64,000 nucleotides of DNA from Erythrobacter sp. ANT-B3C2 (GTDB taxonomy: Bacteria; Pseudomonadota; Alphaproteobacteria; Sphingomonadales; Sphingomonadaceae). The stretch spans positions 51,050-115,049 of the forward strand of contig LXQI01000021.1 in the NCBI GenBank assembly GCA_001683845.1, given 5' to 3'. Under the pieces are notes generated by a model. The model searched no databases. It was not told the DNA's origin and saw only the letters and a list, made by a program, of their open reading frames with translations. Positions 35,549 to 46,373 of this stretch are shown in pieces; the stretch's first letter is position 1, and the number at the start of each line of letters is the position of its first letter. The translations under genes and the position numbers were made by a program.

Positions 35549-38500
35549 GTGGGGATGTCGCGGGTTTATGCGCTCCTGGTCGGCATCAACGACTATGTTG
35601 ACGGTGTCAGCAAGTTGCATGGCTGCCTCAATGACATTGATAATGCTAGCGAATATTTGAACGAACAATGCCGGGACCCGGCTATCCTGGTGCTCAAGGA
35701 TGCCGAGGCGACCCGGGTCAACGTGATCGAGGGCATTCGCCGGCACCTGGCCCAAGCCGGTCCCGGCGACGTGGCCTATCTCCAGTTCTGCGGCCACGGA
35801 GCCCGCTCGCGATCCGCGCCCGAGTTCGGCGAATTCGACCTCGAGCGGCGCGACACCGGCCTAGTCCTCTACGACAGTCGCCGAAGCGACCAGACCTTCG
35901 ACTTGGCGGATAAGGAGCTGGCGCTGCTGATTGACGAGCTGGCGCGGCGTGGCCCGCACATCTCGCTGATGTTCGATTGCTGCCATGCGGGTTCCGGCAC
36001 CCGCAGCGACGAGGCGGACGAGGGCGTCAACGTCCGCACTGCCCGCCCTTCCCAATTCCCGCCCCGCCCGCTCGAGACCTACCTCGAAGGGCAATACAGC
36101 GCCCTGCACGCGCGCGGCGAGCTGGCGATCCCCATTGCGCCGCACATGCTGCTGGCCGCCTGCGACCGCTCCCAAACCGCCAAGGAGAGCGTCGTCGAGC
36201 ATCGCGGCTTCTACACGACCTCGTTCTACGACGTGCTGCGCAAGTCCGGCGGCACGGTGAGCTACGCCGAGCTGTTCGTGCGCGCCCGCGCGGCGGTGCG
36301 GCAGCTGGTGCGCGAACTGGGCAAGAGCGATCAGGACCCGCAATTCGAGGCGATCGGCGGCTTCGATGCCTATGCGGGATTTCTCAGCAGCGACGCAGCG
36401 AAGGCGCGGCGCCGCTACATGCTGGTGGACGCCGGGCAAGGCTGGCGGGTCGAATGCGGCGCGGTGCAGGGCCTTTCCACCGACCCGGCGCGCGCCGCTG
36501 CCTTTGCCATTTCCGCCGAGGGTGACGAGGGCGAACGGCTGGGCACGGCCCGTGTCGTCAGCGTCGGCGCACAGACCAGTGCCGTCGCGCTCGATTTCGC
36601 CGCCGACCCCGCTGTGCGCTACCAGGCGGAGGCGATCAGCATTCCCCAGCCACCGCTGATCGTCGGCTTCGCCGGCGATGAGGCGCTTCGCCCGCCTATC
36701 GAGGCAGCGCTGCGGGCCGATCCGGCCGGCACCGCCATGCTGGGCGACGGGGATGATGCTGATGATGACTTCGTCCTCACCGCCGGCAACGGAGTCGTGC
36801 GGCTGACCGAGCGCGGACGAGACGGGACGATCCGGCAGGTCCCGGTAAGCGAGGACGGTACCGGCTGGGCCGCGCCGCTGATCGCCGCGCTGGCGCATCT
36901 CGCGCAATGGCGGCGCAGCCTGGCGCTGCGCAACCCGCACCCGCAGCTTGATCCCGAACAGGTCGATCTGCTCGTCACCGAGCGGCGGCCCGGCGCCCCG
37001 GACCAGCTTCATGCTGGACCGGCGGTGACGCTGGTGGCCACCGAGACCGGGCCCAAGGGGCCGCAGGTCAAGTCGCGCCTGCAGCTGCGCAACCGCACCG
37101 GGCAGCTGCTGCATTTCGCGCTGTTCCACTTCACTGGCGAGCATGCGGTCAAGCTCCACAACAATGGCCAGATCGTCAGCGGCAAAGAGGCGATGACGAT
37201 CCTGGAGCCGCGCTTCTCGATCCCGCAGGGCACGAGCGCGACCGAGCGGCTGAAATTGATCTGCAGCACCGAGCCGATCGACGATTTCCTGCTGGTCCTG
37301 CCGCCGCTGCGCAATGATCGCGACATGGACGTGGACGAGCCCGGCGAGGCGAAGAAGCCGGTCACCGACGATTGGTTCACCCGCGATCTGACCGTTCAGG
37401 TGGTGCGCGGCGAGACCCGGATCGGCGCTGCGCCGACGACGCTGGCAGGGGGGCGCATCACCATCGCGCCGCACGCTTCGCTGAGCGCGACAGTCGCCCT
37501 GACCAGCACCGCCGGCGGCGGTTCACGCAGCGCGGGCGCCGAGGGTGCCGCCGCGCGGCTGCTGCTCGCCTCCGGCCTCCTGCCGGCTTCGCTCGACGGC
37601 GGCAGCCGAGATACCGAGGGCGCAGCCGTGCTGGTGCTTGGCGATATCGTCCATGCCGAGGCGCTGGAGGACGAGCCGCTGGCGCTGCGGCTCGATGTGC
37701 CGCTGGGCGAGCGGGAGGTGCTGGTTCCGCTGTTCCAGGCCGGTGGGCGGATGATCGTCGCCGGCGAGACCTGGCGCGATGAGGACGGGGCGACTCAGCT
37801 GCGGATCGCGCACCTTCCCAATGGCGGTGACGAGCGCAATCTCGTCCAGACCGCCAAGCTGTTCCTGTTCAAGGCGGTGCTGAATGCCGGCGATGTCGAC
37901 CTGCTGCGGCAGGTGGTGTTTTCGGAAGCGAGCCGACCGGAATGGCGCCGCTCGGGGATCGTCGAGGCGGTCGCCGCTGCCGACCGTGTCCTGCTGCTGC
38001 TCCACGGCATTGCTGGTGGCAGCGAGCCGATGGCCGCGGGAGTCCATGCGGCGGGGCTGGACGGGCAATTCGGCTGCGTGCTGGCCTATGATTACGAGAG
38101 CCTGTCGACGCCGATCGAGGACACCGCGCGATTGCTGAAGGCCGCCCTGGCCGGGGTGGGTCTGCAGGATGGCAGCGGCAAGCGGCTGACGATCCTGGCC
38201 CATTCGACCGGCGGGCTCGTCGCGCGTTGGCTGGTGGAGCGCGAGGGCGGGGCTGCGTTCATCGATCATGTGGTGCTGTGCGGTACGCCCAATGCGGGCT
38301 CGCCGCTCGGCCGGGTGGGGCAGGCGCGCAGCGTCGCGCAGATGCTGGCGACGCTGGGGCTGACGATGGGCATGCCGGTTTGCGGGCCAGTGCTGGCGGT
38401 GCTCGGCTATTCCTCGAAGCTGACGCCGAGCCTGGAGCAGACCGCCGCCAATTCCTCGCTGATGAAGGCTCTTGCGCTGAGCGAACGGCCCGCCGGCACG

Positions 38501-38767
38501 CGCTACACCATCGTGGCCGGCGATGCCTGCGACTACGAGGCGCAATCGGGCAGTGGCCTGAGCGAAGCGCTGCTGGCGGTGGGCCAGGGATCGCTGGTGG
38601 GCAGCCTGTTCAGCGGCGAGGCGAACGACATCGCGGTCGCGCGGGAAAGCGCGCACGGCGCCGGGGCGCGGGCGCTTGCCGGGGCGGAGCGGCGAGACAT
38701 CGCCTGCCATCACCTCGGCTATTTCAGCGCGCCGGAGGCACTGGGGGCGTTGAGGGCCATCGAATGA
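35549..38767 (+). CDS. Caspase-family (peptidase C14) protein fused to a C-terminal alpha/beta-hydrolase domain
   Basis: Caspase-like His motif 'LQFCGHGARS' and Cys motif 'MFDCCHAGSG'; C-terminal 'VLLLLHGIAGG' and nucleophile elbow 'LAHSTGGLVARWL'; 1072 aa. Confidence 0.9.
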   Translation: MGMSRVYALLVGINDYVDGVSKLHGCLNDIDNASEYLNEQCRDPAILVLKDAEATRVNVIEGIRRHLAQAGPGDVAYLQFCGHGARSRSAPEFGEFDLERRDTGLVLYDSRRSDQTFDLADKELALLIDELARRGPHISLMFDCCHAGSGTRSDEADEGVNVRTARPSQFPPRPLETYLEGQYSALHARGELAIPIAPHMLLAACDRSQTAKESVVEHRGFYTTSFYDVLRKSGGTVSYAELFVRARAAVRQLVRELGKSDQDPQFEAIGGFDAYAGFLSSDAAKARRRYMLVDAGQGWRVECGAVQGLSTDPARAAAFAISAEGDEGERLGTARVVSVGAQTSAVALDFAADPAVRYQAEAISIPQPPLIVGFAGDEALRPPIEAALRADPAGTAMLGDGDDADDDFVLTAGNGVVRLTERGRDGTIRQVPVSEDGTGWAAPLIAALAHLAQWRRSLALRNPHPQLDPEQVDLLVTERRPGAPDQLHAGPAVTLVATETGPKGPQVKSRLQLRNRTGQLLHFALFHFTGEHAVKLHNNGQIVSGKEAMTILEPRFSIPQGTSATERLKLICSTEPIDDFLLVLPPLRNDRDMDVDEPGEAKKPVTDDWFTRDLTVQVVRGETRIGAAPTTLAGGRITIAPHASLSATVALTSTAGGGSRSAGAEGAAARLLLASGLLPASLDGGSRDTEGAAVLVLGDIVHAEALEDEPLALRLDVPLGEREVLVPLFQAGGRMIVAGETWRDEDGATQLRIAHLPNGGDERNLVQTAKLFLFKAVLNAGDVDLLRQVVFSEASRPEWRRSGIVEAVAAADRVLLLLHGIAGGSEPMAAGVHAAGLDGQFGCVLAYDYESLSTPIEDTARLLKAALAGVGLQDGSGKRLTILAHSTGGLVARWLVEREGGAAFIDHVVLCGTPNAGSPLGRVGQARSVAQMLATLGLTMGMPVCGPVLAVLGYSSKLTPSLEQTAANSSLMKALALSERPAGTRYTIVAGDACDYEAQSGSGLSEALLAVGQGSLVGSLFSGEANDIAVARESAHGAGARALAGAERRDIACHHLGYFSAPEALGALRAIE

Positions 38768-40560
38768 GTGCGGTAAGCGCCTTTGCGCCGGTCGTCCTGC
38801 TGGCCTTTGCCAACGACCAGGGCAGCTATCTCGAGAACCTGGTGCGCGAGCGAAAGGCGATCGCGGAGGGTCTCCAGCAGTTCGAGGACCAGCGCTACCT
38901 GCGCGTCCATGTCGAGCCCAATGCGGGGATCGACGATCTGTTCGCTTTGTTCGGCCGCTTCGCCAACCAGTTGGCGATCTTCCATTATGGCGGCCATGCG
39001 AACGGCTCGGCTCTGCGGCTCGAGGCGAACGGCGGTGCCAATGAGACGGCCCATGCCGGCGGGCTCGCGCAGATCCTCGGGCAATTGCGCGCGCTGAAGC
39101 TGGTGTTCCTCAACGGCTGCGCCACGCGCGACCAGGTGAAACGGCTACTCGAAGCCGGTGTGCCGGCGGTGATCGCCACCTCGGCCAAGATCGACGACAG
39201 CGCAGCCAGCAGCTTTGCCGCGCAGCTTTATGCCCGGCTGGGCGAGGGGCGCACGATCGCCGAGTCCTTCGCCGCCGCCCGCGCGGGGCTTGCCACCCGC
39301 GAGGGCGAGAGGCGCACGATCGACGCCTTTCGCGCGATGGATGTGGACGGCGAGGAATCTGCGCCGGGCAGCGATGCGCTGACCTGGGGCCTCTATACAA
39401 GGCCCGACGATGCGGGCGATGCGGCGCTCGGCTGGACGCTGCCGCAGGTCGCCGAGACAGAAGTGGTGATCGGGGCCACCCACGGCGGATTTGGCGCGCC
39501 GGCGGCCGAGCCCAATGCGGTGCTGCGTCAGACGCTGTTCAACGCGGTTGCCCGCCACAACGAGACGGTGTTCCGGCGGCTGGAGCAGGCGCGCGACAAT
39601 TCCATCGACGACGTGCGCGTGATCCCCGCCTCGATCTACGACAACATCCCCGCGCCCGTGGGCGAGCATATCCGCATGCTGTTCTCGCTAGCCGAACCGG
39701 ACCTGCAGCGGCTGCGGCAGCTGGCCCGCACCTACGAGATCGCGGCCAAATTTCTGGCGTTCGCGCTGGCTTCGCAAATCTGGAATGCGCGACTGGCGCA
39801 GCCCGGCTTCGCGCTGTCGGACATCGCGTGGGAGCAGCTCGACGCGTTCCACGCGCTCGACCCCGCGGCGGAGGCAAGTTTCGATCATCTCGGCCTCGCG
39901 CTGGCGCTGATCGCAGGGCTGGAGGAAAACGGGGTGTTCCCCTTCATGGCCGAAAGCGCCGGCTTGCCGGCCGCACTGCTGGCCCAGGAGCCGGCCGAGG
40001 CGCGTGCTTTTCTGAAGGAACTGCGCGAGCAGCTGGCGGCGGGCGATCCGCCAGTGCATGAGGTGGAGCGGCTGTGTTTCGATGGCGAACGCCACCTCGC
40101 GGCGCTGCTGGCGGAAATGGCCTTCATCGCCGGGTACAAGCTGGCGGTGGTCAAGCAGATCGCCATTACAAAGGCTCGCAACCGGCCCGCAACATACCGC
40201 CAGACGCGGGTGGAGCTCGACCAGATCTCGCTCAACATGTTCGCCGATGTGAGCCGGGAGGCCAGCGGCTTCAGCGACAACCAGGCGGTGCTGCTGTTCC
40301 GCTCGCTCGCCCATCCGGACGTGTTCCTCAACCTCACCCCGTTTCTGCTGGACCCGCTGGCGATCCGCAACCGGCCGGGTGCACAGCTGTTCTTCCTGCG
40401 ATCCTGGAGCGCCGAGCAGCAGGAGGCGACTTACCATCTGGTGGTCGACCCCACGGTCACGCTGGTCGTTTCGGGAACCTCGCCTGATCGGGACTCGGCG
40501 CTGTTCGCGCCGATCCGCGAGCAGCTGAGCGAGTTCCGGCGGGTGGTGGCGCGCCCGTGA
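38764..40560 (+). CDS. CHAT domain (caspase-like) protein
   Basis: 'LAIFHYGGHANGSALRL' (His) and 'LKLVFLNGCATRDQVKRLLEAGVPAVIATSAKIDD' (Cys); ATGA overlap with the upstream gene. Confidence 0.88.
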   Translation: MSAVSAFAPVVLLAFANDQGSYLENLVRERKAIAEGLQQFEDQRYLRVHVEPNAGIDDLFALFGRFANQLAIFHYGGHANGSALRLEANGGANETAHAGGLAQILGQLRALKLVFLNGCATRDQVKRLLEAGVPAVIATSAKIDDSAASSFAAQLYARLGEGRTIAESFAAARAGLATREGERRTIDAFRAMDVDGEESAPGSDALTWGLYTRPDDAGDAALGWTLPQVAETEVVIGATHGGFGAPAAEPNAVLRQTLFNAVARHNETVFRRLEQARDNSIDDVRVIPASIYDNIPAPVGEHIRMLFSLAEPDLQRLRQLARTYEIAAKFLAFALASQIWNARLAQPGFALSDIAWEQLDAFHALDPAAEASFDHLGLALALIAGLEENGVFPFMAESAGLPAALLAQEPAEARAFLKELREQLAAGDPPVHEVERLCFDGERHLAALLAEMAFIAGYKLAVVKQIAITKARNRPATYRQTRVELDQISLNMFADVSREASGFSDNQAVLLFRSLAHPDVFLNLTPFLLDPLAIRNRPGAQLFFLRSWSAEQQEATYHLVVDPTVTLVVSGTSPDRDSALFAPIREQLSEFRRVVARP

Positions 40561-41291
40561 ACCGGCCGTTCAAGTTCCTCGATGCGTTCGAGGCCGAGGA
40601 CCGTGACAGCTTCTTCGGCCGCGAACGCGAGGTCGAGGAGCTCTACGCGCTGGTGCTTGAAAGCGAGCTGACGCTGGTGTTCGGCACGTCCGGGACGGGC
40701 AAGACCAGCATCATCCAGTGCGGCCTCGCTAACCGGTTCCCCTCGACCAACTGGCACCCGATCTTCGTACGGCGCGGCGACGATCTCAATGTTGCGCTCG
40801 ACCGCGCGCTGCGCGCGCAGGGCCGCACGCCGATCCCCCCGGACGCCCCGACAAGGGAGGCGCTGCGCTCGCTTTACCTCGACATACAGCGGCCGCTCTA
40901 CCTCGTGCTCGACCAATTCGAGGAAATCTACGTGCTCGGCAGCGAGGCCGAGCAGGAGCGGTTCTACACCACTGTCTCCGAGATCCTGGCGGGGGAGGTG
41001 AGCTGCCGGATCATCATCAGCCTGCGCGAGGAATATCTCGCCGCGCTGACCCCGTTCGAGGCGGTCGTCCCACGGTTGTTCGATGCGCGGCTGCGGGTGG
41101 AGACGATGCGCCCGCGCTGTGTGATCGAGGCGATCATGGGCATGACCGCGGCCGCTGGTATCACGCTCGAACATGGCGAGGCGACCGCGCAGCTGATCGT
41201 CGACCAGCTCGATGATCAGCGCGTCGGCGTTCAGCTGACCTATCTGCAGGTCTATCTCGACGCGCTGTACCGCCGAGCCGCGCATCGATGA
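40557..41291 (+). CDS. STAND-like P-loop NTPase, apparently C-terminally truncated
   Basis: Walker A 'FGTSGTGKTSII', Walker B 'LYLVLDQFEEIYVLG', 'RIIISLREEYLAALTPFEAVVPRLFDARLRV'; GTGA overlap with CHAT gene; stops after 244 aa, before any C-terminal helical/repeat region. Confidence 0.82.
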   Translation: MNRPFKFLDAFEAEDRDSFFGREREVEELYALVLESELTLVFGTSGTGKTSIIQCGLANRFPSTNWHPIFVRRGDDLNVALDRALRAQGRTPIPPDAPTREALRSLYLDIQRPLYLVLDQFEEIYVLGSEAEQERFYTTVSEILAGEVSCRIIISLREEYLAALTPFEAVVPRLFDARLRVETMRPRCVIEAIMGMTAAAGITLEHGEATAQLIVDQLDDQRVGVQLTYLQVYLDALYRRAAHR

Positions 41292-42972
41292 TGGCGAGGC
41301 CGGTGAGGCCGAACAGGCTGCTCGGCTCGCGCGCGAAGGCCGCGCGCGCGGCCGCCGGTTCGCCCAGCATAAGCTGGCTGGAACCGATGGCGGCATGCAC
41401 GACCGAGAGCTGCGGATTGAGTGCGAGCGCCTGTTCCAGCGGCGGAATCGAAGCGGCATAGGCGCGCGCGGCATATTCGATATCGCCCTTCTGCCGAAAG
41501 ACGCGGGCATTGAGCGGATCGAGCGCGACGGCCTTGGCGATGGCGGAGCGCGCCTCCGTTGCCCGGCCGCAGCGCGCGCTGTAGAGAGCGTAGCGGGCCA
41601 GCACGTCGGCATTCCCTTGCCCAAGATCGCGCGAGCGCTCGAACGGCACGCGGGCCGCCTGTGCGTCGATTGTGCCGTTGAACAGCGCGAAGCCGAGCGC
41701 GGATTGCGTCTCCGCGCTGTCTGCCCGCAGGGCGACAGCGCGACGCGCCGCGGCGATGGCGGTTTCGTAGCGGGCCCGGCGAGTTGCGCCCTGGTCGTAC
41801 TGGTTGCCGATCACCGTCAGCGAACGCGCGCGCGCCGCATGGGCCGCGGCATAGGACGGATCGGCCTCGATCGCGCGATCGAACATCGCGAGCGCCGCCA
41901 TGTCGTCTTCCTGCTCCGCCGCGCGATTGTAGAGGTCCCGGCCGCGCAGGTAGAAATCATAGGCCTGCAGATCATCGGTGCCGACCTGCGGGCCGGCGCC
42001 ATTGTCGACGAGGCTGCGGGTGAGTTCGAGAGTGACGGTGCCGGCGATCTCGCTCTGCACCGCGAAGACATTGTCGACCGGCCGCTCAAAGGTTTGCGAC
42101 CAGCGGCTGAAGCCCGTAGCGCCCTCGATGAGTTCGGCCGAGACGCGCATGCGGTCTCCCGCCCGGCGCACGCTGCCATCGAGCAGGAACCGCACGCCCA
42201 AGGCGCGGGTAATGGTGCGGGCATCCTCGGTGCTGTCGCGGAAGCTGTTGGAGGAGGTTTGCGCGACGACCCTGAGCAGCGGATTGGCCGCGAGTTCGGT
42301 GCGCAGTTCCGCTGCCAGCCCATCGGAGAAATAGGCCTGCTCGGCCGAGCCGCTCAGATTGTCGAACGGCAGGACCGCGAGGCTGTTGTCGGTCTCCGCC
42401 GCCCCGCCCGGCCGGTTCCAGTCCAGCAGGTCCCAGTGCCAGGCACCCGCCGCCCCGGCTGCGCCTACGGCGGCAATTCCGCCGATGAGCGCGGTGCGGC
42501 GGGACAATAATGCGCCCCGCGCCGGTGCTGCTGCTGCGGGGGTCGGCAGGCGCTCCCCATCGTGTAGCGCCGCGACAGCGCGGAGCATGGCCGCGATCGC
42601 CTCCGCGCGGCCGTGCGAGAAATCGATCGTCTGGACTTGGCGGAAGCCGAGCGGCGGCGGGGTGCCATCGAGCGTGAGTGGTACGAGGCGCTGGCTGTCA
42701 CGCGCCACCCCCGCCTCGTCGCGCACCCAGTGCGATGCCACCGCGCTTTTGGACCACAGGACGATGACTGCGCGCGCGCTGGAAAGCGGAGCCTCGATCG
42801 AGCTGGCGAACACCTCGCCCCCGCCGATCATACCATCCCACCAGACCGAATAGCCCGCCCGTTCCAGAGCTTCAAGCAGCGGCGGCAGCGCCTTGCGATC
42901 GGTGCTCGAATAGCTGACGAACACGGTGGGCTCGGTCGAAGGCGCTGGTTGCACTGCCGCCGGCCCGACCAT
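41275..42972 (-). CDS. TIR domain + TolB-like + TPR protein, probably C-terminally truncated
   Basis: TIR 'PTVFVSYSSTDRKALPPLLEALERAGYSVWWDGMI..SHWVRDE', TM, 'SLAVLPFDNLSGSAEQAYFSDGLAAELRTELA', TPR region. The ORF continues to 41161 but residues after 'GLAIIDARLGG' look like antisense read-through of the NTPase gene. Confidence 0.85.
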
Positions 42973-43370: not shown

Positions 43371-45221
43371 GTGACCGAGCGTTTCTCCGCTTTCATCAGC
43401 TATAGTCACAGCGATGAGCCGATCGCCCGCTGGCTTCATCGCGCGATCGAAACCTACCGCTTTCCTCGCGGCATCGTCGGGCTGGAGGGTCAGTTTGGCG
43501 CAGTTCCCGGACGGCTGCCGCCGGTCTTCCGCGACCGTGAAGAACTGGCGGCCAGCGGTGATCTGGGTGCCGAATTGCGACAGGCGCTGGCGTGCTCGCG
43601 CTTCCTGATCGTGATCTGCAGCCCTCGCTCGGCACAGTCTCACTGGGTTAACGAGGAGATCCTCGCCTTCAAGCGGCAACATGGCGAAAACCGGTGCTTG
43701 GCTCTGATCGCGTCGGGCGAACCGAACGTTGGCGGCGCCCTCGAATGCTTTCCCGAGGCATTGCGGTTTCGGCTCGGCCCCGATGGGGCGCCGTCTGGCG
43801 AGCCGGCGGAACCGATCGCTGCCGACATCAGGCCCGGAAAGGATGGCAAACGGCTCGCGTCCCGAAAACTGCTGGCCGGCCTCTCCGGGGTTCGCCTCGA
43901 TGTCCTCGTGCGGCGCGATACCGTTCGTCGCCAACGGCAACTGATGTTCACGACCGCGGCAGCATCAATGGTTGCCCTGTTCACCCTCGGCCTTGCCGTT
44001 TACGCCGAAGGGCAGCGAAGAGTCGCGGTCGAACAGCGCGATCTGGCGGAGAGCAGTCTCGAGTTTCTAATCGGCACGTTCGAGGTCGCGAACCCGGCGA
44101 CGGAAAACCCGCGAACGATCACCGCCCTAACCTTTCTCGACCGGGCGAGCGAACGGGCCGTTGTCGAGTTCAGGCAGCAACCGCAGGTTGCAGCCCGGCT
44201 CCTGCGAGCCACCGGAGACATCTATTACAATCTCGGGCTGCCGCAGGAATCCGAACGTGCCCTTCTGACTGCCCTGAAGCTGGAGCCTTCCGCTGGAGCG
44301 GGACGCGCGACAACGCTCCTCAAACTGGCATCTGTCGCGAAAAGCCGCGGCGATGTGGACGCCGTGGAAAGCCTTATCGAACAAGCGGTGGCGGCGCACG
44401 ACGGGGAAAATTCGCGAAGTGCTGAGATCGAGGCGATGGTGGCCGAACAGGAAGCGCACATCGCTCATCTGAAAGCGGAGTACCCGCTGGCTGCCGAGCG
44501 CTACGCCGCGGCAGTGGTTCGCTATCAGCAACTGCCGGGCGATCATCGCGGCAAGATCGGCGAGAACCTGATGAACCAGGCCCACTCGCTGGTCCAGGCC
44601 AACGATTTTACCCAAGTCGACAGGCTTTACGAGCAGGCGCGCGACGTCTTCGTCGCCAAGTTCGGCGTGCGCGACGTGCGCACGGCCCGGTCGTTTCACA
44701 ACCAGGCCCTTGCGAACCTGTCCGCCAACCAGCCCGATGCAGCCGTGGCCGAGATGACAAGAGCCTTGAGAATTTACCAACGTGTATTGGAGCCGCGCCA
44801 CCCCAATTTCGCTGCGGCCCACTTGCTGATGGGACGCATATTATCGGGGCAAGGCCGGCACGAAGAGGCTTCGGCAAGTTTCAGCCAGGCGCGGCAGATC
44901 TTCGCGAGCCTGTATGGTGCTGACAATCCGGCCTTGGGAGATGTCGACTTCTACGCGGCCGAGGCGGAAGCAAGGGGCGGACGCTTCGACAAAGCAAAGT
45001 CCCTCGCGGCCAATGTGAAGCGGATCTATGATCTTCATTATGGCGCAGACGATCCGGATCAGGTTGCCCTGCTGTTGCTTCGTTCCCGCATCGATTGGAT
45101 GGCGGGGAATGGGGCGGCAGCCCGGCAGCGGTGCCGCAGCGCCATGGCTCTTCAGCGCAAGATCGAAAACAAACCAAACGTGATCGGTAATTTGGAGAAA
45201 CAATGTAATGAATTGACTTAG
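43371..45221 (+). CDS. TIR domain + TM + TPR protein
   Basis: 'FSAFISYSHSDEPIARWLHRAIETYRFP..CSRFLIVICSPRSAQSHWVNEEI', TM 'FTTAAASMVALFTLGLAVYA', C-terminal TPR (kinesin-light-chain-like) repeats; GTG start. Confidence 0.88.
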   Translation: MTERFSAFISYSHSDEPIARWLHRAIETYRFPRGIVGLEGQFGAVPGRLPPVFRDREELAASGDLGAELRQALACSRFLIVICSPRSAQSHWVNEEILAFKRQHGENRCLALIASGEPNVGGALECFPEALRFRLGPDGAPSGEPAEPIAADIRPGKDGKRLASRKLLAGLSGVRLDVLVRRDTVRRQRQLMFTTAAASMVALFTLGLAVYAEGQRRVAVEQRDLAESSLEFLIGTFEVANPATENPRTITALTFLDRASERAVVEFRQQPQVAARLLRATGDIYYNLGLPQESERALLTALKLEPSAGAGRATTLLKLASVAKSRGDVDAVESLIEQAVAAHDGENSRSAEIEAMVAEQEAHIAHLKAEYPLAAERYAAAVVRYQQLPGDHRGKIGENLMNQAHSLVQANDFTQVDRLYEQARDVFVAKFGVRDVRTARSFHNQALANLSANQPDAAVAEMTRALRIYQRVLEPRHPNFAAAHLLMGRILSGQGRHEEASASFSQARQIFASLYGADNPALGDVDFYAAEAEARGGRFDKAKSLAANVKRIYDLHYGADDPDQVALLLLRSRIDWMAGNGAAARQRCRSAMALQRKIENKPNVIGNLEKQCNELT

Positions 45222-45296: not shown

Positions 45297-46373
45297 ATGC
45301 GCAAATTCGATCTGTTTCAAGGATTTGCTCCTTTCGGGCTGATTTTCTTTTTGGCTCCGTCAACTGCTCTGGGGCAGGTCGTGGAGACTTCAACCATCCA
45401 GAACAGCTTCTGGTACGACCTAGCAGGGCAGCAAGGATCCGGCTTCAACTCTGGCGGGTCGGAGGCTATATTCGAACGGAAAACCACCGAGACCGGCATA
45501 TCCGAAGTGGGCTTATCGCTGACTGGAACACTGGACAACGGCAGCTTTTTCTTCCTTCACAACGGCCAATGTGTCGGCAATTGTTCGCTGACCATTACCA
45601 CGAACATCAACTTCACGCTGTTCAACAGCGGTCCCTCACCGGTGGATCTGCGGTTTGACTCCCAGATCACGCCCGGTCATCTGGCGAATTCTTTCCTTAA
45701 TCCTGGAGGAGGATCGCAGGCGAATTTCGTCTTCTCGATTTTTCAGCCCCCAGGCTTCGGGCAAGGCGCGCTCTATCGGACAAGCGGCAGCGCGGCGCAG
45801 TCTCCTCCGGAGGTGCAAACGAGCGACATGTCTGTCTTCAACGGCTTCAATATTCAGGACAATGCGCCCGAGTGGACGGTGGCCGACTGGAGCGCGACCA
45901 ACATCAGTGTCAACCTCAGGACGCTTGACCCGGGACAGACGACCAGTCTTCTTTATTCTTCGACCTTGCGGATCTCGACCAGCCAGGTGGATTGTGGAAA
46001 CCCGCAACTCTGCGAAAGCTTCCAGGTTGCTTTCGGCGATCCCCGGAACACGGGCGGGGTCATGCAGGCTGCTTCGCTTGCGTCCTTCACATCCTTTCTG
46101 GATGGCCCGCTGACGATTGGGCAGTCGCCCAACCCGGCCGTCGGCTCGATCTACGATCCCTTCCAGGTGTTCTACCGATTTGTCGAAGTTGGCTCCTCCC
46201 CACCGCCATTTCCGACTTCGATCATTCCGCCCATCACCTACGATGTGAACTATGCCGGCCCCACCATTAGCGCCATTCCCGAACCCGAGACCTGGCTCTT
46301 GTTGGTGGTGGGCTTCGGTGTTCTTGGAGGGATGATGCGGCGGCAGCGTGCACCCCGCGCATCATCTGCATAG
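45297..46373 (+). CDS. PEP-CTERM sorting domain-containing exported protein
   Basis: Signal peptide and C-terminal 'AIPEPETWLLLVVGFGVLGGMMRRQR'. Confidence 0.9.
   Translation: MRKFDLFQGFAPFGLIFFLAPSTALGQVVETSTIQNSFWYDLAGQQGSGFNSGGSEAIFERKTTETGISEVGLSLTGTLDNGSFFFLHNGQCVGNCSLTITTNINFTLFNSGPSPVDLRFDSQITPGHLANSFLNPGGGSQANFVFSIFQPPGFGQGALYRTSGSAAQSPPEVQTSDMSVFNGFNIQDNAPEWTVADWSATNISVNLRTLDPGQTTSLLYSSTLRISTSQVDCGNPQLCESFQVAFGDPRNTGGVMQAASLASFTSFLDGPLTIGQSPNPAVGSIYDPFQVFYRFVEVGSSPPPFPTSIIPPITYDVNYAGPTISAIPEPETWLLLVVGFGVLGGMMRRQRAPRASSA

Follow-up and report, generated by a model that had tools for sequence, protein, structure and literature searches.

Three consecutive plus-strand genes in a 64,000-nucleotide stretch of the Erythrobacter sp. 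ANT-B3C2 genome (contig LXQI01000021.1, positions 51,050 to 115,049; hereafter the window) raise the question of whether two caspase-clan proteases and a STAND-type nucleoside triphosphatase (NTPase) encoded side by side form a system in their own right, and of what kind. The genes, here termed A, B and C, occupy the open reading frames (ORFs) 35549-38767, 38764-40560 and 40557-41291 in the ORF list of the window, and are joined by an ATGA overlap at 38764-38767 and a GTGA overlap at 40557-40560. The initial annotation had described these overlaps together with a caspase dyad in A, a CHAT-type dyad in B and Walker A and B motifs in C; all of these are present, and homologues keep both the dyads and the Walker motifs. 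Its assignment of the third gene as a STAND-like NTPase holds as to type, an nSTAND1 domain with both Walker motifs being found, but the gene itself is broken. We assign a probability of about 0.6 to a reading of the locus as the decayed remnant of a two-protease conflict system gated by a STAND protein, with effectors exchangeable around a core formed by B and C.

The core emerges from comparison with other genomes. A search of genome contigs with the single B sequence gave nothing; the B alignment as query worked and, at one genome per species, yielded 78 loci, taking in Sphingomonadales, KSB1, Aminicenantes, Acidobacteriota, Saprospiraceae, Lewinella, Chitinophaga and others. Domain profiles built from alignments identified 48 full-length B proteins, present in Alphaproteobacteria, KSB1, Bacteroidota and others, and the next gene encodes an nSTAND1 protein in 43 of the 43 B loci with room downstream, the other 5 of the 48 stopping at a contig end. 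Many B-C pairs in relatives are joined by a 4-bp overlap, and the distances among B proteins are correlated with those among C proteins (r = 0.88, a value reached by none of 2000 permutations). CHAT and an nSTAND-type NTPase are also found fused in single proteins of approximately 1000-1900 residues (loci L068, L069, L078, L080, L083-L085, L087-L091 and others), and therefore the two probably act together physically. Genomes of the same family carry full-length A, B and C homologues in the same order, with a further gene, D, convergent downstream in most, and the A-B-C order is kept in other loci as well. The trio proposed initially as the system does recur, but comparison shows the invariant core to be only B, a predicted CHAT protease with its own C-terminal domain, and C, a predicted nSTAND1 NTPase. 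As both dyads are kept in homologues and the 4-bp B/C overlap is common among relatives, the A-B-C operon is not a chance arrangement.

The two putative proteases differ in architecture. Gene B has a CHAT domain at residues ~8-190 (Pfam match 23-180, E 7e-10, 39.2 bits against a cut-off of 24) with a dyad, H78/C119, that is invariant in 37 aligned homologues. It is followed by a domain of ~400 residues (~200-598; helices at 252-457, then strands), to which searches of Pfam, PADLOC, NCBIfam and PDB assigned no identity. The AlphaFold2 model of B is of high confidence (predicted local distance difference test, pLDDT, 87), and the PDB folds that it matches at E below 0.001 all come from the activated SAVED-CHAT filament 8TL0 (E 6e-8) and cover the CHAT part. 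Gene A, for which the ATG at 35555 is the likelier start, matching the start of homologues, has a caspase C14 match at residues 6-267 (E 7.5e-16, 59 bits against a cut-off of 21.4) and a DUF7379 alpha/beta-hydrolase match at residues 816-941 (E 6e-12), both from Pfam. Its caspase dyad is formed by H83 at ~35.795 kb and C145 at ~35.98 kb (numbering from the GTG at 35549); in a 13-sequence alignment the Cys is invariant and the His is kept wherever covered. The AlphaFold2 model of A is of moderate quality (pLDDT 70); its N-terminal part matches the prokaryotic caspase-like protein 3BIJ and animal caspases, lipases are among its other leading PDB fold matches, and the C-terminal part is grouped with lipases by sequence profile too. 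The score against the EACC1 caspase profile NF047832 of NCBIfam is 27.6 bits, below the cut-off of 140. The caspase and CHAT folds predicted by the initial annotation are thus recovered by Pfam, AlphaFold2 models and PDB fold matches.

Gene C retains the Walker A (GTSGTGKT) and Walker B (LVLDQFEE) motifs, which are also seen in the alignment, and matches the nSTAND1 profile of Pfam (E 1.5e-36, 127 bits against 27.1), but only over profile positions 1-240 of 379. Intact C proteins comprise the NTPase, an HD motif, a single transmembrane (TM) segment at approximately residues 440-460 with basic residues ahead of it, and then a sensor such as WD40 repeats. The window gene, unlike its intact relatives, is without the winged-helix end, the HD motif, the TM segment and the sensor region, having 244 residues compared with 657-1391 in the close relatives (Allopontixanthobacter sediminis, an Erythrobacter metagenome-assembled genome, Pacificimonas pallii and Polymorphobacter arshaanensis); the P. 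arshaanensis protein runs on through the TM segment into WD40 repeats. A natural length of 244 residues was rejected, as the other aligned C proteins on continuing contigs all have at least 353. The convergent gene D can be aligned with its relatives as far as approximately residue 567, its homologous part being ~41272-42972; beyond this, out-of-frame sequence takes the place of its last ~80 residues. The homology of C and that of D on the reverse strand stop within ~12 bp of each other, and ~1.7 kb of the relatives' sequence is missing at this junction. As C and D are cut at one point, a deletion of ~1.7 kb appears to have fused the convergent genes, and a simple event of this kind would account for the shared breakpoint. 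An assembly error at the junction, in which case the source strain would have an intact four-gene system, is unlikely: both genes end cleanly at one point within a 150-kb contig, and the missing ends of C and D are absent elsewhere in the assembly, as a simple deletion predicts, even if the assembly is in 43 contigs and 91% complete and the rest of the locus is open, the motifs of A and B being intact. Barring such an error, loss of the regulatory end of C and of the end of D most likely renders the window copy non-functional. A comparison with empty sites was abandoned, since the nearest genomes have an upstream epimerase of only 36-43% identity.

Table 1. Features of the locus in window coordinates, or in residues for the parts of gene A.
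Feature	Position	Strand	Basis
Gene A: caspase, beta-rich middle and lipase-like alpha/beta-hydrolase	35555..38767	+	Pfam, homologue alignments, AlphaFold2 model, PDB folds
Gene A, caspase C14 part	residues ~4-290
Gene A, beta-rich middle	residues ~290-800
Gene A, lipase-like alpha/beta-hydrolase part (putative S886, D1027, H1054/H1055)	residues ~800-1072
Gene B: CHAT protease domain and C-terminal domain	38764..40560	+	Pfam, alignment, AlphaFold2 model, PDB fold
Gene C: nSTAND1 NTPase, cut short	40557..41291	+	Pfam, alignment
Apparent deletion junction	41272..41285	none	Alignments of C and D with relatives
Gene D: TIR and TPR, convergent	41161..42972	-	Pfam, alignment
Gene E: TIR, TM and TPR protein, adjoins D	43371..45221	+	Pfam

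The companions of the core are exchangeable and include the caspase-lipase of the A type, other caspases, a caspase-subtilase and TIR or TIR-TPR proteins, with sensor-type WD40 and FGE-sulfatase domains on C or on adjoining genes. A-B-C with a convergent D occurs in five other loci (L027, L028, L030, L032 and L035), and in L039 A is divergent and D lies farther off; on this conserved gene order, the TIR-TPR gene D is part of the locus. Outside A-B-C loci, relatives of D adjoin other genes, and D is therefore not confined to the system. These relatives, in L107, L108 and L109, may belong to a different TIR system: they lie near a large gene that in L108 and L109 encodes the motif VTGHR close to its start, with a similar motif, VTGHRE, in L107. 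Other caspases are found in many Bacteroidota loci. In Chitinophaga, a divergent caspase pair stands beside B-C (L065:4282-6885, L066, L071, L073 and L079), the second caspase of the pair in L065 being fused to a subtilase. Gene E is absent beside the loci of relatives, and its membership is uncertain. In the window, housekeeping sugar genes surround the locus, a PEP-CTERM protein gene lies downstream at 45297-46373, and sigma-70 promoter and terminator scans gave matches at the level of shuffled sequence only. No relative turned up when viral contigs were searched with B and A, and full-length B was absent from the plasmids and phages searched, leaving a plasmid or phage origin unsupported.

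A second form of the core occurs in 14 Bacteroidota loci (L043, L044, L046-L051, L053 and L058-L062), in which C has only 353-375 residues and ends just before the YELAHD motif, whose HD is invariant in fused C proteins. In 13 of the 14, a neighbouring gene has YELAHD within its first residues, and the fourteenth (L062) has the variant WELRHD. The motif-starting neighbours continue for ~80 residues and then, in most, into a TM segment, and this HD tail carries WD40 or FGE-sulfatase domains or, in L047, a caspase. Among the ORFs scanned outside the split loci, the pattern occurs in only one, an antisense ORF in L101. Frameshifts do not account for the split, given that HD-tail genes are placed to either side of the B-C pair. 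In Aureispira sp. CCB-QB1, an array of four HD-tail genes followed by a caspase gene (L121:8823-19229) lies apart from the CHAT-nSTAND1 pair (L053) of the same genome. YELAHD may be the equivalent of the MHD motif of plant and animal NLR proteins; against PDB sequences, intact C proteins gave weak P-loop matches only. On these observations there is an even chance of a split receptor, in which membrane-anchored HD-tail sensor or effector subunits would complete a shared NTPase in trans, with CHAT as the constant output.

How might such a system work? A sensor on C would respond to invasion or damage at the membrane or on its far side, upon which the NTPase would switch nucleotide state, oligomerise and activate the CHAT protease B. 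Protease B would in turn cleave and activate caspase A, and the caspase and lipase-like halves of A, with a TIR NADase-type activity of D, could then damage or kill the cell. SAVED-CHAT proteases work with a caspase in a proteolytic chain in which CHAT is upstream of the caspase. The order from B to A is proposed on the tight link of CHAT to the NTPase and on the analogy with this type III-B cascade. In the reverse order, the NTPase would gate an apical caspase A, and CHAT B would be the executioner activated by A. This is suggested by the position of A as the first gene, by the L047 caspase fused to the HD-TM tail that usually belongs to the STAND protein, from which a caspase can evidently sit directly on the NTPase, and by the caspase gene that follows the Aureispira array; we consider it improbable given that the NTPase has CHAT as its obligate partner (43 of 43), that CHAT-nSTAND fusions are frequent and that SAVED-CHAT systems have CHAT in the upstream place. 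It is likewise doubtful that there is no cascade and that A, B and D are parallel effectors recruited to one STAND platform and directed at separate targets in the host: the tight A-B-C operon with its coupled overlaps and the origin of the closest fold of B, a proteolytic cascade system, argue for a chain, whereas the exchange of caspase-lipase, caspase, caspase-subtilase and TIR effectors fits independent outputs, as does a second B-C pair in P. arshaanensis (L029:786-6346), located directly upstream of a complete A-B-C and without an A of its own.

A role outside defence, as physiological regulated proteolysis or a stress response sensing envelope or metabolic state, would suit a chromosomal locus that lies among housekeeping sugar genes and has no full-length match on plasmids or phages. 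It is quite unlikely in view of the patchy presence of the system, the exchange of effectors and the WD40, FGE and TIR companions, all typical of conflict systems (PMC8195603, PMC10907252). Several points nevertheless weigh against the reading of a STAND-gated two-protease conflict system. The system is rare: the family search gave matches in 7 of 251 genomes, in several cases to the CHAT domain only, and the correlation of B and C distances in part reflects shared species phylogeny. Erythrobacter-type C proteins have a sensor region without a recognised domain. Caspase genes, whether A-like or more distant, were detected within reach of only approximately half of the B-C pairs, and A may therefore not be the sole or obligate target. 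In the A homologues of L039 (6537-9872) and L051 (13050-16448) the hydrolase Ser is replaced by Gly, so that hydrolase activity appears less constrained than that of the caspase; the L039 protein is also without the conserved His. The order and direction of activation are drawn from analogy, and the conflict role from architecture and neighbourhood.

Among the closest known systems, the type III-B SAVED-CHAT/caspase cascade shares the CHAT protease, the closest solved fold of B (8TL0), which belongs, by the title of its report, to a 'cascade of proteolytic cleavages' (Steens et al. 2024, cited in PMC11417357). B differs in that CHAT starts at residue ~8, with an unrelated C-terminal domain behind it; a search for a SAVED domain in the window B gave no match, and there is no room for one N-terminal to CHAT. 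Of 37 B homologues, only 3 matched the PADLOC SAVED_CHAT profile, the best at E 1.1e-6, and the switch in the A-B-C system would be an nSTAND1 NTPase, not a cyclic nucleotide. The pairing of caspase with alpha/beta-hydrolase is shared with the VMAP (MoxR-vWA) ternary systems, in which an alpha/beta-hydrolase gene always accompanies the caspase domains (Kaur et al. 2020, PMC7159879) and which differ from gene A, where both are fused; the VMAP-C score was 13.9 bits against a cut-off of 27, and no MoxR or vWA was found among A-E. The nSTAND1 conflict proteins (Kaur et al. 2021, PMC8195603; Dore et al. 2024, PMC10907252) carry WD40, FGS or effector-associated domains and share the NTPase and the lectin/FGE-type sensors, with caspase, CHAT and TIR listed as effectors; they are mostly single multidomain or adaptor-linked proteins, and the passages covered describe no constant pair of a CHAT gene with an nSTAND1 gene and no STAND split before HD. 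The CARD-NLR/LypABC system (PMC13236601) likewise combines a tripartite peptidase with a STAND/NLR-like ATPase and causes cell lysis in an alphaproteobacterium, but employs trypsin-like peptidases and CARD, whereas the A-B-C proteases are of the caspase clan; Pfam and PADLOC gave no match in A-E to a CARD-like domain, trypsin-like peptidase or gasdermin/nuclease effector. Craspase/TPR-CHAT (PMC9729208, PMC10028731) also places a CHAT protease under a nucleic-acid or NTP-dependent sensor, but under RNA-guided Cas7-11 control, and no Cas protein occurs in the loci scanned. Membership of AVAST/Avs is not indicated, an intact relative of C scoring 15.3 bits against Avs4 with a cut-off of 1500. The literature searched contained no account of a CHAT gene constantly paired with nSTAND1, which, with open-licence full texts as the scope, is weak evidence; the suggestion of the initial annotation that the arrangement may be undescribed agrees with the outcome of these searches and of those in family libraries.

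Taken together, the comparisons point to a recurring but apparently undescribed gene set in which a STAND protein, the ATP-driven switch, has CHAT as a constant partner and often a further caspase-like protease, a caspase joined to a lipase-like enzyme. The novelty is in the CHAT-nSTAND1 core, the B domain and the split STAND, and not in the window copy. Gene B offers an unclassified domain of ~400 residues, and the split STAND, if true, would be a way to multiply receptors around one NTPase and would give a direct biochemical handle on the role of the HD motif in STAND switching. Two caspase-clan proteases under one STAND switch would have the layout of animal apoptosome-type pathways, resembling the sensor-switch-protease chains of animal cell death, and the presence of the CHAT-nSTAND1 pair across phyla makes it testable as a new defence family with exchangeable effectors.

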